Assembly: GCF_022695595.1 (NCBI RefSeq)
Contig: NZ_CP074380.1
Location: forward strand, 7,220,501-7,284,500
Reading direction: 5' to 3'
Source of the DNA: Streptomyces sp. MST-110588
GTDB taxonomy: Bacteria; Actinomycetota; Actinomycetes; Streptomycetales; Streptomycetaceae
DNA length: 64,000 bases
The position numbers and the translations under genes were made by a program. Shown piece after piece: positions 23,612-31,234 of this stretch; positions within the stretch are counted from its first letter, which is position 1; every line of letters starts with the position of its first letter. The notes below the pieces were generated by a model. That model was not told the DNA's origin, made no database searches, and was given only the letters and a program-made list of their open reading frames with translations.

Positions 23612-24073
23612 CTACGGGACCACCGTCACCGGCCAGCGGCCGGCCTTGACCAGGCGGACCGCCACCGACCCCATGATGCGGTGCCCCGCCGACTCCGAGG
23701 CGCCCACCACCACCGCGTCCGCCTTCAGCTCGTCGGCCATCCGCACCATCCCGCCGTACGGGTCCCCGCGCAGCGTATGGAACTCCCAGCGCACGTGATG
23801 GGTGCCGTACGAGCGCTCCGTCGCCGCGCGCATCTGTGCCATCAGCTCCTCGGCGACCTCGTCCGCGGCGTCCACGACCGGCGCGCCCATGACCGCGCCG
23901 GCCGGCAGCACCGGCTGGACGTAGACCAGCGCGAGCAGCGACCCCTGGCGGCGGGCCAGCCCCGCGGCGTAGGCGGCGGCCCGCCACGAGGAGTCCGAGC
24001 CGTCGACCCCGACGACGATCACCTTCGGTCCGTCCGTACCGCGCTCGAAGGGCGCGGGCGTCTTGTCCTCCAC
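23612..24073 (-). CDS. Universal stress protein (UspA family)
   Basis: A 153-aa Usp with the initial VIVVGVDGSDSSWRAA and the ATP-binding end GASESAGHRIMGSVAVRLVK cut by the usual G-2x-G-9x-G pattern, ending WPVTVVP. The GTG start (VEDKTP) lacks a good Shine-Dalgarno, so the true start may be a few codons later. Likely dormancy or redox-stress regulated as in other actinobacteria, though no promoter element was identified. Confidence 0.88.
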   Translation of the reverse strand: MEDKTPAPFERGTDGPKVIVVGVDGSDSSWRAAAYAAGLARRQGSLLALVYVQPVLPAGAVMGAPVVDAADEVAEELMAQMRAATERSYGTHHVRWEFHTLRGDPYGGMVRMADELKADAVVVGASESAGHRIMGSVAVRLVKAGRWPVTVVP

Positions 24074-24159: not shown

Positions 24160-27024
24160 TCACGAATCCGCGCCGGTGCCGCGCTCCGGGAGCACCGGCC
24201 GCCACGGCGCGAAGGCGCTCGCGCCGCGCGGCAGCATCGCGGCCAGCTCCGGGCAGTGCCGCAGGATGACGGAGCTCATGCCGCCCTTGGCGACCCAGTC
24301 CATGCCCAGCGGCGTGTACAGTTCCGGCCGGAAGTCGACGGTCAGGAACCGGTCGGACTGGATCCGCCGGGTCGCCATCAGGATGAAGATCCTGAAGGCG
24401 GTGTCGCTGAAGCCGAAGCCCTTGGGCGGGTTCTCGGCGAACAGCCCGACCATGGTGTCGACCTCGTCGACGTTGCGGTAGACCTCCTTGAGCCGGGTGA
24501 CCGTCTCGGGATCGCCGGAGATGTCCTCGAAGCGGCTCACCCGCTGCTTGTGCAGCCCGGCCCGGAAGTCGTTGTAGCGCGGTACGCCGCGCCGCCTGGT
24601 CCGTACCAGATCGACCACCGAGAGGTCGATGATCTCGCCGTCCCGCTCGAAGTGGGTCAGCGACCGCGGGTAGTTGCGCAGGGTGATCGCGCCGGGATGG
24701 GCGATGCCGAAGGAGTACAGGGAGTCCGCCAGCCCGGTCTTGCGGGCCACCGCCTCGGCCGCCACACCCTGGATGTCGTGGAAGGACACCGTCTCCAGGC
24801 GCTGCCCGAAGTGGTGCTCCCGCAGCTCGTAGTCGTCCGGGATCAGCGGGTGCATGCGGTAGACGGTGACGAAGTCCTCGGTCAGCGAGTACGGCACGTC
24901 GTGGTGGTCGGGCAGGGTCCTGGGGATGCCGGTCAGCGCATGCGACTCCACCAGCCACAGGCCCAGCTTGGTCAGCCAGTTGTCCGGCGGGCCCTCCCAG
25001 TTGGTGCGCAGGCCGACGTCGATGGCCTTGGTGGCCAGGATCGCCGGGGTCCACTCCACCGTGTGGATCTTGGCGATCAGGGCGGAGACCACCAGCCGCG
25101 CGGTGTGGTAGATCCGGTCCTCGCTCATCGAGGGGTACTCGGCGCGCAGCGCGTCGCACAGGGCGTTGTGCTCGCGCGCGAAGAGGGTGTGCATCACGCT
25201 CAGGCCCAGCCACCAGTTCTCGCTGAACCCGGTCAGCGGGATACCGTCGGCGCCGATCGGCAGATGGCCGTCCTCCAGGCGCAGCTTGGCGCCGCCGTCC
25301 GGCTCGCGCAGCGAACGCGCGGTGCGCTCGTCGCCGCCGTACACCTCCGAGCCGTCCCACCACGGCGAGGTGGTGTTGGTGAACAGCAGCGGCGGCTTGC
25401 CGGGCTGCTCCACGCCGATGTTCTCCGCGAACCGCATCACCTCCTCCGACGGTCCGCCGGGGGTGTTCTGCCAGGTCGTGCCGGGCGGCAGCGGCACCTC
25501 GACGGACCGGCCGCCGACCGGGTGGCGCCGGTGGTTGACCCAGTCGTGCACCTGGAACTGGATCCAGGCCGCGGCCAGGATGTTCAGGGAGGTCGCGGGC
25601 ACGAACGCCTCGCGGTGCAGCAGCCGGCGGGCGGTGGTGACCGGGTTGGGCACGTCGAAGAGGTCGGGCCGGTAGACGGGGGCGAGGTTGCGGCCGAAGG
25701 TCGAGCCGATCGCGCCCATGTGCGGCACGGACAGATCGGTGGAGGAGCCGTCGTAGGTACGGGCCGTGCGGGCCGCCTCGTCCACCGTCTCCGGCACCGG
25801 TACGGCCTTCGGCGGGGCCTCGGGGATCTCGGTGTCGATGAGGTTGAAGCGGCGCAGCGCCTGGCGCAGCGCGACCAGGTTGAGCAGGCTCAGGTTCAGC
25901 GGCAGCCGGTGCCAGGGCACGTACCGGTTGACGAATCGGAAGGCGGCCCGCACCGGCACGCCGATCAGCGCGTTGCGTACGGGTTCCTCGGTACGGAAGC
26001 GGGTGCCCAGGCGGTGCGCGGCGCTCGCCTGGTAGGCGGCCTTGCGGGCGCGGTTGAGGTTGCCCAGCGGACGGAACTCCTCGGTGGTGTGCCACGGGTT
26101 GAACGCCAACTGCTCGATACGGCGCGCCGCCGAGCGGGCCTGCGCGGAGGTCAGGTCCTGGCGCGGCACGGTCAGCCGGGCGACGGTCAGCACCGGCGCG
26201 TCCGATTCGCGCCAGTTGGCCGCACCGTCCTCCACCGGGGTCCGCCGCTGGTCGGTGAAGCGCTGGACGCACAGGTCGAAGGCGACGTCCTCGGTGGCCA
26301 GCCGTTCCGTCAGCTCGTGCCGCAGGTGGTCGGGGTCGCGCTTGTCCGGGCGCGGCGCGGGCGAGCCGCCGGGCGCCGGCCGGAACTGGTAGCGCACCGG
26401 TCCCGCCTCGCCCCACAGGATCGCGCCCCGGCTCCAGTACGTCTCGCGGGCCAGCGACCCGACCACGTGCCGGGAGGCCGCCTGCACGTTCTTGCGCATC
26501 CGCGCCGCGGTGTTCCAGCCCACCGCCAGCGGCAGCTTCACCAGCAGCCCGAACGCCTTCTGGACCGGGTTGACGGCCCCCGCCATGGCCTTGGCGAACG
26601 CCACGAACTCCCGCGCGTCGCGGGCGTGGGAGACCGGGAAATTGGTTGCCAGCAGGTCGTGGTTCTCCTCCCCGGAGACCTCCACGCGTACGGCGATGCC
26701 GCGCAGGTCCGGTGTGCTGTCACTCTGGGCCGTGCCGCCGGCGTTGGAGAGCCGCAGGAGCGCCGGGTACTCCGCGCCGGGCCGCGCGTACCCGGTGGTC
26801 AGCGCCGCCGGCAGATCGTCGGCGAAGCGCAGCCGGGCGTTCTCCACCCCCAGCGCGGCCTTGGCGTGGAAGGCCCGCTGGACGCCCGGGGCCCCGGCGG
26901 CCTCCTTGTTCTTGAGCTGCACCCGCATCAGTTCGCGTGCCAGCTTCTCGAAGACCACTCGCTCCGCTTCGGGACTTCCGCCTTCGTACGTCTCGTACTG
27001 CGCGTAGTTCACGGTGTCGGCCAT
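24160..27024 (-). CDS. Catalase-like (AOS-type) / alpha-dioxygenase-like heme peroxidase fusion
   Basis: One 954-aa chain with two heme domains. Residues 1 to about 345 are catalase-related: a distal His in RAFHAKAAL (H53), the heme-face FPVSHARDAREFVAFA, and the proximal ligand motif R-x-x-x-Y as RKAAY (R327-Y331) after WHTTEEFRPLGNLNR. From about 430 the chain matches animal-peroxidase/alpha-dioxygenase enzymes: distal His in IQFQVHDWVNH (H493), LFAREHNALCD, proximal His in AKIHTVEWTP (H654) and the radical tyrosine in VYRMHPLIPD (Y722). The second half would add O2 to a fatty acid; the first resembles hydroperoxide-rearranging or -consuming enzymes such as allene oxide synthase. The ATG is in frame and no targeting signal is seen. 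It is convergent with none and downstream of the PAS-LuxR gene, same strand. Confidence 0.87.
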   Translation of the reverse strand: MADTVNYAQYETYEGGSPEAERVVFEKLARELMRVQLKNKEAAGAPGVQRAFHAKAALGVENARLRFADDLPAALTTGYARPGAEYPALLRLSNAGGTAQSDSTPDLRGIAVRVEVSGEENHDLLATNFPVSHARDAREFVAFAKAMAGAVNPVQKAFGLLVKLPLAVGWNTAARMRKNVQAASRHVVGSLARETYWSRGAILWGEAGPVRYQFRPAPGGSPAPRPDKRDPDHLRHELTERLATEDVAFDLCVQRFTDQRRTPVEDGAANWRESDAPVLTVARLTVPRQDLTSAQARSAARRIEQLAFNPWHTTEEFRPLGNLNRARKAAYQASAAHRLGTRFRTEEPVRNALIGVPVRAAFRFVNRYVPWHRLPLNLSLLNLVALRQALRRFNLIDTEIPEAPPKAVPVPETVDEAARTARTYDGSSTDLSVPHMGAIGSTFGRNLAPVYRPDLFDVPNPVTTARRLLHREAFVPATSLNILAAAWIQFQVHDWVNHRRHPVGGRSVEVPLPPGTTWQNTPGGPSEEVMRFAENIGVEQPGKPPLLFTNTTSPWWDGSEVYGGDERTARSLREPDGGAKLRLEDGHLPIGADGIPLTGFSENWWLGLSVMHTLFAREHNALCDALRAEYPSMSEDRIYHTARLVVSALIAKIHTVEWTPAILATKAIDVGLRTNWEGPPDNWLTKLGLWLVESHALTGIPRTLPDHHDVPYSLTEDFVTVYRMHPLIPDDYELREHHFGQRLETVSFHDIQGVAAEAVARKTGLADSLYSFGIAHPGAITLRNYPRSLTHFERDGEIIDLSVVDLVRTRRRGVPRYNDFRAGLHKQRVSRFEDISGDPETVTRLKEVYRNVDEVDTMVGLFAENPPKGFGFSDTAFRIFILMATRRIQSDRFLTVDFRPELYTPLGMDWVAKGGMSSVILRHCPELAAMLPRGASAFAPWRPVLPERGTGADS

Positions 27025-27064: not shown

Positions 27065-27841
27065 CTACTCGGCCCCCTGCCCGGTTCCAGGGGTGGTTTC
27101 GGGCGGATTCATGGATCTGTAGGAGGAGTGTCGGGTGGGGCGTACGAGGCGCGTCGGGCCTGCGTCGGGCGCCCGTGCGGGCCGTTCAGACGGGGGCCGG
27201 GGCCAGGCGGTGGGGGACAGGACGCCCAGCACGTACGCCTTGGCCACCAGGGCGGTGCGGCCCTGCACCCGCCAGCGGCGGGCGAGCCGGCCGAGGTGAT
27301 AATTGACGCCGTCGGTGGTCATGCCCAGCGACTTGCCGATGGCCGCCGTGGTCGTGCCGGCCGCGGCCAGGGCCAGGATGCGGGCCTCCACGGGGCTGGC
27401 CAGGCCCCGGGCGGACGGCTGCGGGACCTCCTCTCCCGCGCGCAGCACGGCGAGCAGGGCGGGCGGGGTGACGGAGGGGTCGCCGACCGGATCGACCGTC
27501 AGCTCACCCGTACGCTCGGCCCCGTCCGTGCCCGCCCGCCAGCGGACCTCGACGGGGTAGCGGGACCTGCGGCCCAGCCGCAGCGCCTCGGTCAGCCGCT
27601 CGAACTGGGCGATCGCCGTGGGACGGAAGAGGTCCAGGAGGTTACGGCCGCGCAGTTGGCCCGGGGCGGTGCCCCACTCCGCCGCCATGGCCGGGTTGGC
27701 AACGAGCACCACGCCGTCGGCCCGGCACACCGCCGTGGGCAGCGGTATCCGGTCCAGGAGAATGAGGAAGTAGTTGCGCCAGGGACCGGCTTCGTACGGG
27801 GCGGCCGGGTTGCCGGCGTCGTCGGTGGTTCCCTGGTCCAT
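27065..27841 (-). CDS. PAS-LuxR transcriptional regulator
   Basis: A 258-aa regulator with an N-terminal PAS sensor domain (LLDRIPLPTAVCRADGVVLV, then NPAMAAEWGTAPGQLRGRNLLDL) and a C-terminal LuxR-type HTH (EARILALAAAGTTTAAIGKS, then TTDGVNYHLGRLARRW). This is the architecture of the PimM family, whose members control secondary metabolite clusters. A GAGAAGGAG precedes its ATG. It is divergent from the CYP102-like gene across a 105-bp intergenic region with an 18-bp inverted repeat, and just upstream of the heme fusion. It probably controls one or both. Confidence 0.88.
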   Translation of the reverse strand: MDQGTTDDAGNPAAPYEAGPWRNYFLILLDRIPLPTAVCRADGVVLVANPAMAAEWGTAPGQLRGRNLLDLFRPTAIAQFERLTEALRLGRRSRYPVEVRWRAGTDGAERTGELTVDPVGDPSVTPPALLAVLRAGEEVPQPSARGLASPVEARILALAAAGTTTAAIGKSLGMTTDGVNYHLGRLARRWRVQGRTALVAKAYVLGVLSPTAWPRPPSERPARAPDAGPTRLVRPTRHSSYRSMNPPETTPGTGQGAE

Positions 27842-27946: not shown

Positions 27947-30900
27947 ATGACCGACACGATCCCGTTCCACGCCGACGAGCGCGCCGGCGACCGCCCCGCC
28001 GCCACGGCCTCACGGACCGGCGCGACCGCTGCCACCGCCGCGACCGCCGTGTCCGCCGAGGTCGTCGAGGACACCGGGGACGGCGGCATGCCGGTGGTCG
28101 ACATCTCGGCGACCGGCCCGACCGCCACCCCGCTCCAGCAGGCCATGGAGATCACCCGCCGGCACGGCCCCGTCTTCCGGCGGGTGCTGCACGGCCGCTC
28201 CTCGGTCATGGTCTCCTCCCTGGAGCTGGTGACGGAGCTGGCCGACGAGGAGCGCTTCGCCAAGGGCATCGCGCCCGCGCTGGAGAACGTCCGGGAGTTC
28301 GCCGGTGACGGACTGTTCACCGCGTACAACGAGGAGCCGAACTGGGCCCGGGCGCACGACATCCTCATGCCCGCCTTCGCGCTGGGCTCGATGCGTACGT
28401 ACCACCCGGCGATGCTGAAGGTGGCCCGCCGGGTCATCGCGAGCTGGGACCGGCGGGCCGCCGACGGCACCCCCGTCGACGTCCCCGAGGACATGACACG
28501 GATGACGCTGGACACGATCGGTCTGGCCGGTTTCGGCTTCGACTTCGAGTCCTTCAGCCGCGACACCCCCCATCCCTTCGTGGACGCCATGGTGCGCTGC
28601 CTGGAGTGGAGCATGACCCGACTGGCCCGCACCCCCGGCGTGGACCACTCCGAGCGGGACGAGGCGTTCCGGGCGGACGCCGACTACCTCGCCTCCGTCG
28701 TGGACGAGGTCATCGCCGCCCGGCAGGGCAGTAGCGGAACGGGCCCCGACGGCCGTACGGCCCCGGCCGAGGACCTGCTCGGCCTGATGCTGGACGCCCC
28801 GCACCCCGAGGACGGCGAGAAGCTGGACGCGGCCAACATCCGCAACCAGGTCATCACCTTCCTGATCGCCGGCCACGAGACGACCTCCGGCGCCCTGTCC
28901 TTCGCCCTGTACCACCTGCTCAAGGACCCGGTCGCGCTGCGGATGGCGCAGCGCGAGGCCGACGAGCTGTGGGGCGACGAGCCCGACCCCGACCCCTCCT
29001 TCGAGGACATCGGACGGCTGCCCTTCACCCGCCAGGTGCTCAACGAGGCGCTGCGCCTGTGGCCCACCGCCGCGGCCTTCAGCCGCCAGGCCCGCCACGA
29101 CACGCTCCTCGGCGGCCGGTACCCGCTGCGCGCGGGCGAGCTGGTCACCGTTCTGACGCCGATGCTGCACCGCGACCCCGCCTGGGGCGACAACCCCGAG
29201 CTGTTCGACCCGGCGCGGTTCGCCCCCGAGGCGGAGGCGGCCCGCTCCCCGCACGCGTACAAGCCCTTCGGAACGGGGGAACGCGCCTGCATCGGGCGGC
29301 AGTTCGCGCTGCACGAGGCGACGATGCTGCTGGCGATGCTGGTGCACCGCTACCGGCTGATCGACCACGCCGACTACCGGCTGCGCGTCAAGGAGACCCT
29401 CACCCTCAAGCCGGACGGCTTCACCCTCACCCTGGCCGCCCGCACCCCTGAGGACCGGGCGGCGGCACGTGCCGCGCTGGCTGTGCTCCCCGGCGGCGGC
29501 GACAAGGCCCCGCAGGACACCGCGCGGGACGGCGAGCTGCCCAGCCGCGCCCGGCAGGGCACCGGCCTGCTGCTCCTGCACGGCACCAACTACGGCACCT
29601 GCCGGGAGTTCGCCGAGCGGCTGGCCGAGGAGGCCGGTGAGCTGGGCTTCACCGCCGAGGTGGCGCCGCTGGACGCCGCGGCCGGCGCGCTGCCCGCCGA
29701 CCGCCCCGTCGTCCTGGTCGCCGCCTCCTACAACGGGCAGCCGACCGACGACGCGGCCGGATTCGTGCGCTGGATCCAGGGCGCGCAGGAAGGGACCGCG
29801 GCAGGCGTCGCGTACGCGGTGCTGGGCGTCGGCGACCGCAACTGGGCCGCCACCTACCAGCGCGTGCCGACCCTGCTCGACGACCGGCTCGCCGCCCTGG
29901 GCGGGGAGCGGCTGCTGCCGCGCGCCGAGGCCGACGCCTCGGGCGATCTGTCCGGGACCGTACGAAAGTTCACCGCCCACCTGCGGACCGCCCTGCTCGC
30001 CCGGTACGGCGACCCCGCGAGCACCGGCGCGAGTGGTACGGAGCCCGCCGGGCCCGCGCAGGAGACGTACAGCGTCACCGAGATCACCGGCGGGCCGCTG
30101 GACGCGCTCGCCGCCCGGCACGGCCTGACGCCCATGACCGTCACCGAGGCATACGACCTCACCGCCCCCGGTCACCCGCGCACCAAGCGCTTCCTGCGCC
30201 TGGCCCTGCCCGACGGCGTGACCTACCGCACCGCCGACCACCTCGCGGTGCTGCCCGTCAACGCCCCGGCGGCCGTCGAGCGGGCCGCCCGGGTACTGGG
30301 CGTGGACCTCGATGCCGTACTGGCGCTGCGCGCCCACCGCCCCGGCCGCGACACCCTGCCCGTCGACCGGCCGCTGACCGTACGGGAACTCCTGGCCCAC
30401 CACCTGGAGCTGGGGGCGCGCCCGACACCCGCACAGGCCGCGCTGCTGGCCGCGCACAACCCCTGCCCGCCCGAGCGCGCGGCCCTGGAGAACCTCGCCG
30501 AGGACGACCCGCGGACCGTCCTGGACCTCATCGAGGAGCACCCGGCGCTGCGCGGGGCGCTGCCCTGGACGGCCGTGCTGGACCTGCTGCCGCCGATGCG
30601 CGTCCGGCACTACTCCGTGTCCTCCTCGCCCGCCGCCGACCCCCGGCACGCCGACCTGATGGTCTCCCTGCTGCCCGGCGGCACCGGCTCGGGCCATCTG
30701 CACGCGCTGCGGCCCGGGGACACGGTCCTGGCCCGCGTCCAGCCCTGCCGTGAGGCGTTCCGTATCGACCCCGCCGACCCGACCCCGGTGATCATGGTCG
30801 CGGCCGGCACCGGACTGGCGCCCTTCCGCGGCGCGGTCGCCGACCGCGTCGCCGCCGGCCGGCCCGCCCCCGCGCTGCTCTTCTTCGGCTGCGACGCGCC

Positions 30901-31234
30901 CGACGCGGACTATCTGCACGCGGCGGAGCTGAAGGCCGCCGAGGCGGCGGGCGCGGTGGGGCTGCGGCCGGCCTTCAGCGTCCGTCCCGAGGAGGGCCGC
31001 CGCTACGTCCAGCACCGGATCGCCGCCGCGGCCGACGAGGTGTGGCCGCTGCTCCAGGCCGGGGCGCGGGTGTACGTGTGCGGGGACGGCAGCCGGATGG
31101 CGCCGGGCGTACGGGAGGCGTTCCAGGAGCTGTACGCCGCACGGACCGGCGCCTCGCGGGAAGAGGCGCGGTCCTGGCTGGACGGGCTGACCGCGGCGGG
31201 CCGCTACGTGGAGGACGTCTACGCGGCCGGCTGA
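27947..31234 (+). CDS. Self-sufficient cytochrome P450/NADPH reductase fusion, CYP102 (BM3)-like
   Basis: A 1095-aa fusion. The heme domain has AGHETTSG (308-315), EALRLWP and the heme loop FGTGERACIGRQFALHE (Cys448). The CPR part has an FMN flavodoxin domain starting LLLLHGTNYGTCREFAERL. An FAD domain follows, with RHYSVSSSP and GTGLAPFRG, then NADPH-binding VYVCGDGSRMAPGV. CYP102 enzymes hydroxylate medium and long fatty acids near the omega end without partner proteins. The N-terminus has an extra Ala/Thr-rich 55 residues. The ATG follows GGAGGA. The nearby fatty-acid dioxygenase-like fusion makes a shared lipid substrate plausible. Confidence 0.93.
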   Translation: MTDTIPFHADERAGDRPAATASRTGATAATAATAVSAEVVEDTGDGGMPVVDISATGPTATPLQQAMEITRRHGPVFRRVLHGRSSVMVSSLELVTELADEERFAKGIAPALENVREFAGDGLFTAYNEEPNWARAHDILMPAFALGSMRTYHPAMLKVARRVIASWDRRAADGTPVDVPEDMTRMTLDTIGLAGFGFDFESFSRDTPHPFVDAMVRCLEWSMTRLARTPGVDHSERDEAFRADADYLASVVDEVIAARQGSSGTGPDGRTAPAEDLLGLMLDAPHPEDGEKLDAANIRNQVITFLIAGHETTSGALSFALYHLLKDPVALRMAQREADELWGDEPDPDPSFEDIGRLPFTRQVLNEALRLWPTAAAFSRQARHDTLLGGRYPLRAGELVTVLTPMLHRDPAWGDNPELFDPARFAPEAEAARSPHAYKPFGTGERACIGRQFALHEATMLLAMLVHRYRLIDHADYRLRVKETLTLKPDGFTLTLAARTPEDRAAARAALAVLPGGGDKAPQDTARDGELPSRARQGTGLLLLHGTNYGTCREFAERLAEEAGELGFTAEVAPLDAAAGALPADRPVVLVAASYNGQPTDDAAGFVRWIQGAQEGTAAGVAYAVLGVGDRNWAATYQRVPTLLDDRLAALGGERLLPRAEADASGDLSGTVRKFTAHLRTALLARYGDPASTGASGTEPAGPAQETYSVTEITGGPLDALAARHGLTPMTVTEAYDLTAPGHPRTKRFLRLALPDGVTYRTADHLAVLPVNAPAAVERAARVLGVDLDAVLALRAHRPGRDTLPVDRPLTVRELLAHHLELGARPTPAQAALLAAHNPCPPERAALENLAEDDPRTVLDLIEEHPALRGALPWTAVLDLLPPMRVRHYSVSSSPAADPRHADLMVSLLPGGTGSGHLHALRPGDTVLARVQPCREAFRIDPADPTPVIMVAAGTGLAPFRGAVADRVAAGRPAPALLFFGCDAPDADYLHAAELKAAEAAGAVGLRPAFSVRPEEGRRYVQHRIAAAADEVWPLLQAGARVYVCGDGSRMAPGVREAFQELYAARTGASREEARSWLDGLTAAGRYVEDVYAAG

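Follow-up and report, generated by a model that had tools for sequence, protein, structure and literature searches.

Several natural systems are known in which a fatty-acid dioxygenase (DOX) is joined to a partner that processes its hydroperoxide product; what is said of them here holds for the available parts of the cited sources. In corals (cAOS-LOX, with an allene oxide synthase, and cHPL-LOX, with a hydroperoxide lyase) and in Anabaena and Acaryochloris, a catalase-related domain is fused to a lipoxygenase (LOX) (PMC5617202, PMC11719350), and fungal linoleate diol synthases and DOX-P450 fusions combine a dioxygenase and a hydroperoxide-processing domain in one protein with two hemes (PMC13049297). 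A bacterial counterpart is found in Nostoc punctiforme, where linoleate 10S-dioxygenase, a heme enzyme of the cyclooxygenase (COX) superfamily, is paired with a catalase-related heme protein that acts as a lyase (PMC13049297). Here we describe a different combination in a 64,000-nucleotide stretch of Streptomyces sp. MST-110588 (NZ_CP074380.1, positions 7,220,501 to 7,284,500; hereafter the window), where a single gene encodes a 954-amino-acid protein fusing a catalase-fold domain to a full alpha-dioxygenase (alpha-DOX) domain. The coral and cyanobacterial fusions differ from it in that their partner is a lipoxygenase rather than an alpha-DOX heme domain, and the fungal proteins in having a P450 partner and a dioxygenase of another subfamily; the Nostoc system is set apart by its published description, in which the 10S-DOX is closest to COX, not alpha-DOX, and the lyase is a separate gene.

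Alpha-DOX makes a 2-hydroperoxide, which decarboxylates to the Cn-1 aldehyde or gives a 2-hydroxy acid; many alpha-DOXs have a peroxidase activity giving hydroxy fatty acids, whereas the rice enzyme is without it (PMC9305512). Kim et al. report alpha-DOX in Actinobacteria, and the available part of their text does not mention the fusion (PMC8720084). Within the Creative Commons-licensed literature of PubMed Central, which was incompletely covered, we found no paper on a catalase/alpha-DOX fusion, on Streptomyces alpha-DOX or on rhizobial alpha-DOX. An earlier sequence-only reading of the window knew of no described bacterial pathway with such a pair; this must be narrowed, since related cyanobacterial pairs are known, and holds to the extent that those, as described in the accessible text, are not alpha-dioxygenases. 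The literature also mentions, in the portion available, one cyanobacterial protein with catalase and heme dioxygenase parts that acts on linoleate, with 10-hydroperoxide-type products. Its products are thus not those of alpha-oxidation. It may be the Nostoc system loosely described; should it prove a genuine fusion, the present architecture loses some of its novelty, though the dioxygenase subfamily differs.

Two heme-type domains in one open reading frame

The sequence-only reading had proposed a 954-amino-acid protein with two heme domains, and exactly this open reading frame (ORF) was recovered, on the minus strand, which that reading had left unstated. Its G+C content by codon position (0.70/0.49/0.96) has the strongly biased pattern of coding sequence. 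Two Pfam domains score above cut-off, Catalase (PF00199, residues 78-344, E 2.5e-12) and An_peroxidase (PF03098, residues 422-930, E 3.5e-93), and a search of the organism's own genome with the protein gave one match only. Relatives were examined in three sets: the best 120 of 1078 database proteins (951-981 amino acids, query included); the best 80 of 203 relatives from a wider genome scan, of which 30 rows have non-Streptomyces titles; and, separately from the latter, 57 rows comprising 56 distinct fusion ORFs and this protein. Both domains lie in one ORF at all loci of the 80-locus set, and because this arrangement is intact in 80/80 cases, the fusion is far beyond chance.

The C-terminal half is, judged by its sequence, an orthodox alpha-DOX. 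Residues 369-941 match plant alpha-dioxygenase in the PDB with E 4.2e-105, against 1.9e-22 for lactoperoxidase and 2.8e-10 for COX, and these scores together with the carboxylate-site residues excluded a COX-type or animal peroxidase identity. In the same PDB comparison nothing points to the COX-like subfamily of the Nostoc 10S-DOX: alpha-DOX leads by a wide margin, with COX well behind. By alignment to rice alpha-DOX, for which residue roles are described in the available text of PMC8720084, 14 of 16 named active-site and channel residues are identical. Rice Y379, H382 and H157 correspond to the catalytic Y722, proximal H725 and distal H493, and H311 (which binds the fatty-acid carboxylate), T316 and R559, positioning the carboxylate and alpha-carbon, to H654, T659 and R887; the remaining identities are L383, R387, W658, F718, F877, F880, I881 and A884, and at the other two positions rice M325 is replaced by I668 and rice A331 by T674. 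Thus plant and cyanobacterial alpha-DOXs (rice 4kvj, Arabidopsis 4hhr, CalDOX/LepDOX) share the whole domain and 14/16 rice residues, and the fusion adds to it a catalase-like N-terminal domain of ~345 residues. All the residues singled out by the sequence-only reading (H53, the RKAAY motif with Y331, H493, H654 and Y722) are present where it placed them; its assignment of H493, H654 and Y722 to the alpha-dioxygenase/peroxidase family stands with one correction: H654 does not ligate the heme, whose proximal ligand is H725.

The N-terminal half has a catalase fold with an altered distal pocket. Searched alone, the first 348 residues best match a catalase-related protein of M. avium paratuberculosis in the PDB (3e4w, E 1.5e-10, over residues 44-341). 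That protein (3e4w/3e4y) has peroxidase activity, stands alone unlike the fused domain, and carries Gln rather than Asn at the aligned distal place; its kinship with the domain is one of sequence. The name MAP-2744c did not occur among the papers listed by a search of the Creative Commons-licensed PubMed Central literature. The distal His (H53) and the proximal Arg-x-x-x-Tyr ligand motif (R327/Y331) of catalases are kept, and as to these two features and the fold the 'catalase-type' label given to the first third is right; it fails for the distal Asn, replaced by T127, and for the distal Phe pair (which we take to be F153/F154 in human catalase), replaced by S132/H133. F52 precedes the distal His, and F140 is kept. 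Asn148 of human catalase is named as a conserved distal residue in the title of a paper, the part of that source available. As a control, 11 catalase rows were recovered from 19 loci: 9/9 of at least 488 amino acids keep Asn and Phe-Phe, and in the two catalase-type rows of ~310 amino acids the distal Asn is replaced, by Gln and by Leu. A true catalase was therefore rejected on T127 and S132/H133, and the N-terminal half is probably not one. In coral cAOS, heme is contacted by R64, R102, R360 and the proximal Tyr353, and Thr66 and Asn137 are distal (PMC5617202, available text). Placed by the catalase alignment and spacing, without the coral sequence, the heme-contacting four correspond to R50, R91, R338 and Y331, H53 also takes the place of a heme contact of the coral enzyme, and the distal Thr66 and Asn137 correspond to Phe52 and Thr127.

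Among the 120 closest homologs H53, R327, Y331, S132 and H133 are invariant and T127 occurs in 119; the position before the distal His is variable (Phe in 92) and N128 is mostly Ser. Eleven heme and active-site residues (H53, R91, R327, Y331, R338, H493, H654, T659, Y722, H725 and R887) are identical in 120/120 and unchanged in all readable rows of the 80-locus set. In the latter, H53, S132 and H133 occur in 79/79 readable rows (one gap), Y331 and the carboxylate/alpha-carbon residues H654, T659 and R887 in 80/80, and T127 in 77 with Ser in two; the 30 rows with non-Streptomyces titles agree at the pocket sites. Because the altered distal residues are near-invariant among fusions, the catalase-like pocket is a different, conserved one and is not in decay. 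The sequence-only reading had named loss of the heme-pocket residues in an alignment as grounds for its rejection; this protein has kept them, and H53 is present in 53/57, 120/120 and 79/79 readable rows of the three sets.

Distribution of the fusion

In a scan of the genus, at least 45 of 392 genomes, this one included, gave a near-full-length match in one piece, and at all 50 loci of the genus that were picked as fusions a single ORF carries the two domains. Samples of 296 genomes of the phylum and 293 of the order contained no full-length fusion outside the genus, where matches were partial and confined to one half or, in one genome (G679), to a stretch of 55 residues. The wider scan recovered full-length fusions from Nonomuraea, Microtetraspora, Planobispora, Actinomadura, Sinosporangium, Actinocorallia and one Mycobacterium as well as Streptomyces, together with 16 records from Rhizobiales (Rhizobium, Mesorhizobium, Phyllobacterium and two less specifically named) at ~60% identity. 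Confinement to Streptomyces was accordingly dropped. The fusion is thus real and no isolated oddity: it is widespread, from Streptomyces to rhizobia, in many bacteria of soil or associated with plants, and apparently unstudied.

Phylogenies were quick trees with support from the Shimodaira-Hasegawa-like approximate likelihood-ratio test (SH-aLRT) only. In a tree with rows from the wider scan, those nearest to this protein are from S. rimosus and S. monomycini, and all 16 Rhizobiales rows fall into a single clade (support 100) adjoining the long-branch Mycobacterium row, which suggests that the fusion was transferred between phyla. In a 68-row tree of alpha-DOX sequences the 12 fusion rows form one clade (SH-aLRT 100).

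Alpha-dioxygenase operons without the fusion

For comparison we took, from among the matches listed, 46 loci of the genus at which alpha-DOX stands alone, with five from other actinobacteria. Three arrangements were seen. In type A (loci L060-L075 and L077; for example L066:3-7824, plus strand) the order is a thiamine pyrophosphate (TPP) enzyme, a GlcD-like flavin adenine dinucleotide (FAD) oxidase, a P450, a hydrolase and alpha-DOX; the full set of four partners was tagged at 11/17 loci and at one other, L130. The representative TPP enzyme is a benzoylformate decarboxylase above the NCBIfam cut-off, the FAD oxidase has a strong Pfam match and falls below the glcD cut-off, and the hydrolase is weakly assigned. 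This operon looks like a complete bacterial cassette for fatty-acid alpha-oxidation: the oxidase and the benzoylformate-decarboxylase-type enzyme fit a route from 2-hydroperoxy through 2-hydroxy and 2-oxo acid to aldehyde, implying that in some Streptomyces the product is passed on by way of 2-hydroxy and 2-oxo acids.

Type B comprises an unassigned gene, a DyP-type peroxidase (scoring slightly under the superfamily cut-off), a catalase-like gene, a small ORF, alpha-DOX and a patatin-like gene (a weak match). A catalase-like ORF upstream of the unfused alpha-DOX, with the small ORF between, occurs in 7/46 loci and in L129. In a 43-row tree these eight genes group together (support 99), separately from the fused domains; the tree carries a warning of long branches, the type B rows included. 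At two further loci (L134, L135) a DyP-type peroxidase gene is paired with a catalase-like one, and no alpha-DOX lies in the stretch fetched. In type C a GMC oxidoreductase accompanies alpha-DOX, and at L125 there is also a catalase-like gene 56% identical to the domain described here. Since the fused, type B and L125 arrangements are separate, and the type B clade stands apart from the fused domains, the sequences suggest that catalase-like and alpha-DOX functions were joined more than once; such repeated association argues for a shared purpose of the two functions. Genes resembling lipases or patatins turn up repeatedly in the vicinity of alpha-DOX.

Proposed chemistry and alternatives

We give about an even chance to the fusion being a di-heme enzyme that carries out two steps of fatty-acid alpha-oxidation, for which we infer the heme content, the substrate, the product, the hand-over between domains and the role of a partner. 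In the first step, well supported by the residues, the Y722 radical would abstract hydrogen at C2 of a free fatty acid, and addition of O2 would give a 2-hydroperoxy fatty acid. In the second, the catalase-fold half, with its tyrosinate heme and a pocket of H53, T127 and H133, would process this hydroperoxide, most likely to the 2-hydroxy fatty acid. The fused domain would thereby supply the peroxidase step without which plant alpha-DOX such as that of rice works, and the product of a ~460-amino-acid neighbour found in many lineages may supply electrons. Reduction to the 2-hydroxy acid is favoured because of the missing peroxidase activity of rice alpha-DOX and the route suggested by the type A operon. 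That oxygenase and hydroperoxide-processing logic are united in one protein, as the sequence-only reading had it, agrees with two heme-type domains whose pocket residues are kept. The allene oxide that it listed among possible products is unlikely on chemical grounds, because no double bond adjoins the 2-hydroperoxide of a saturated or delta-9 acid.

The catalase-like half might instead be a hydroperoxide lyase or decarboxylase, converting the 2-hydroperoxide to a one-carbon-shorter aldehyde and CO2 as the Nostoc and coral lyases cleave their substrates. Catalase-related lyases do occur beside or fused to dioxygenases (PMC13049297, PMC5617202), alpha-DOX hydroperoxides normally yield aldehyde (PMC9305512), and F140 lies, by spacing, at the site where the coral lyase has Phe150 and the coral allene oxide synthase Leu150, according to the available text. 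We consider this unlikely, however: 2-hydroperoxides lose CO2 spontaneously, so that an enzyme would be unneeded (PMC9305512), the distal Asn and Thr of coral cAOS are replaced (T127, F52), and Phe at the place of F140 is shared by 9/9 long catalase rows. A role in peroxide control, in which the domain would protect or switch alpha-DOX by removing H2O2 or lipid peroxide and would not act on the intermediate, draws on the peroxide-assisted formation of the Tyr radical in COX-family heme oxygenases (PMC13049297, in part) and on the universal stress gene that follows the fusion in this lineage (6/50 genus fusion loci); it seems quite unlikely, the replacement of the distal Asn and Phe pair by near-strictly kept residues pointing away from plain H2O2 dismutation.

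That each half has a substrate of its own, the fusion serving no more than co-expression or placement at the membrane, would accord with the 39/46 unfused Streptomyces alpha-DOX loci in which no catalase-like ORF was detected within ~6 kb, but their association in separate lineages and the intact fusion from Streptomyces to rhizobia make this very unlikely. An artefact of ORF calling or assembly, with two adjacent genes read as one through a frame join, is practically negligible. Nothing at this gene favours it; some other Streptomyces loci hold pieces only, with a catalase-like ORF and no alpha-DOX ORF in the fetched stretch at L136, L138 and L139, and overlapping partial frames at L137. The single ORF in every one of the 80 loci, and 120 listed proteins of closely similar length, ruled it out.

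Several observations weigh against the two-step alpha-oxidation enzyme itself. The distal pocket of the fusion matches no characterised catalase relative among those comparable. Both distal His residues are lost in 4/57 fusion rows (H53R, H493P; L140, L180, L183 and L184); these rows also carry T659I, yet retain the catalytic Tyr and the proximal ligand of each half. A single event is likely to lie behind the four losses; L180 and L183, the two of them placed on a quick tree, group together there, and a fifth row of the 57 also has P493. The catalase-like pieces at L138 and L139, which are without a whole alpha-DOX, lack the distal His too. Most unfused loci, as noted, have no catalase-like neighbour, and where type B supplies one it is without the distal His (Asn in 7/8 rows, Thr in the partial eighth), so that it may perform different chemistry. 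Finally, as regards the putative electron-supplying partner, a search of the organism's own genome found no match to the ~460-amino-acid family.

Genomic neighbourhood

The fusion gene of the window, its domains and neighbours, and the comparison loci are collected in Table 1. The PAS-LuxR regulator sits between the fusion gene and the divergent CYP102-type gene, whose product matches P450 BM3 and its relatives in the PDB. Both genes are kept beside the fusion in L111, L145, L146 and L147, the regulator at 71-75% identity. The universal stress gene is found in the same place at these four loci and at L112, which has the stress gene alone.

Table 1. Coordinates of the fusion gene, its domains, neighbouring genes in the window and comparison loci.
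Feature	Position	Strand	Basis and details
Fusion gene, 954 aa	24160..27024	minus	ATG 27024-27022, stop 24160-24162
Catalase-like domain, residues ~1-345	25990..27024	minus	Pfam PF00199, 3e4w match, residue tables; key residues R50, F52, H53, R91, T127, S132, H133, F140, R327, Y331, R338
Linker, residues ~346-368	25921..25989	minus	Gap separating the two domain matches
Alpha-dioxygenase domain, residues ~369-941	24202..25920	minus	Alignment to rice alpha-DOX 4kvj; distal H493; carboxylate/alpha-carbon H654, T659, R887; catalytic Y722; proximal H725
PAS + LuxR-type regulator	27065..27841	minus	Pfam PAS, GerE; 40 bases upstream of fusion start
Universal stress protein, downstream of fusion	23612..24073	minus	Pfam Usp, E 3.4e-23
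P450-BM3-like (CYP102-type) P450-reductase, divergent	28079..31234 (start approximate)	plus	Pfam P450/flavodoxin/FAD/NAD
Type B operon	L079:1505-10790	plus	Also L084, L129
~460-aa family, example	L261:5814-7259	plus	
~460-aa family, example	L117:8589-10064	plus	
TPP enzyme near fusion	L119:3574-5310	minus	
TPP enzyme near fusion	L118:8456-10690	plus	

Elsewhere the usual neighbour is the ~460-amino-acid family, which adjoins the fusion in 62/80 loci: in 58, including all 16 Rhizobiales and the Mycobacterium, the gene lies on the same strand directly 3' of the fusion with frames overlapping or close, and in four it is on the opposite strand. It was tagged in 27/50 genus fusion loci, and is not seen at this locus, its near relatives and others. 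Two members scanned had no Pfam or NCBIfam assignment, one giving a sub-threshold nitroreductase match (E 0.012), and a PDB profile search with the family found no credible match. The 120 homologs listed show no Pfam domain, and those named are hypothetical or uncharacterized. Of the 296 phylum genomes, 18 carry more distant relatives (31-36% identity), and none of these 18 is a fusion carrier of that sample.

A gene upstream of the fusion on the opposite strand, its representative a class 3 lipase, is present in 13/80 loci. TPP enzymes lie within ~7 kb of the fusion in 15/50 genus loci and are 21-36% identical to that of the unfused operons. Three were scanned: L116 clears the cut-off of an acetolactate-synthase-type model, and the matches of L118 and L119 to such models fall short of it. 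The best solved match of the L119 enzyme is BbmA, with CsmA also among the closest, and the Creative Commons-licensed PubMed Central literature yielded no role for a BbmA/CsmA-like TPP enzyme. These enzymes were not used as support for the fusion chemistry.

Significance

Taken more broadly, the fusion could represent a widespread and as yet undescribed bacterial module: a di-heme enzyme with channelling between its sites, its remodelled catalase domain filling the peroxidase role missing from alpha-DOX, and the ~460-amino-acid family, a new one, as the usual partner; we advance this tentatively, as a doubtful possibility. If true, the module would make 2-hydroxy or 2-oxo fatty acids, for membrane lipids or as oxylipin signals, in actinomycetes and rhizobia. 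For the membrane-lipid role, 2-hydroxy phosphatidylethanolamine in Streptomyces is a lead, on which a literature search gave no usable paper. Because homologs of the ~460-amino-acid family show no Pfam domain and bear only hypothetical or uncharacterized names, the family next door points to a new enzyme function. With this protein the natural fusions of a dioxygenase with a hydroperoxide-processing domain, such as catalase-LOX and DOX-P450, would gain an alpha-DOX representative. Bacterial fatty-acid alpha-oxidation is hardly described, and a fusion conserved in antibiotic-producing actinomycetes and in rhizobia offers a direct route to the bacterial fate of 2-hydroperoxy fatty acids.

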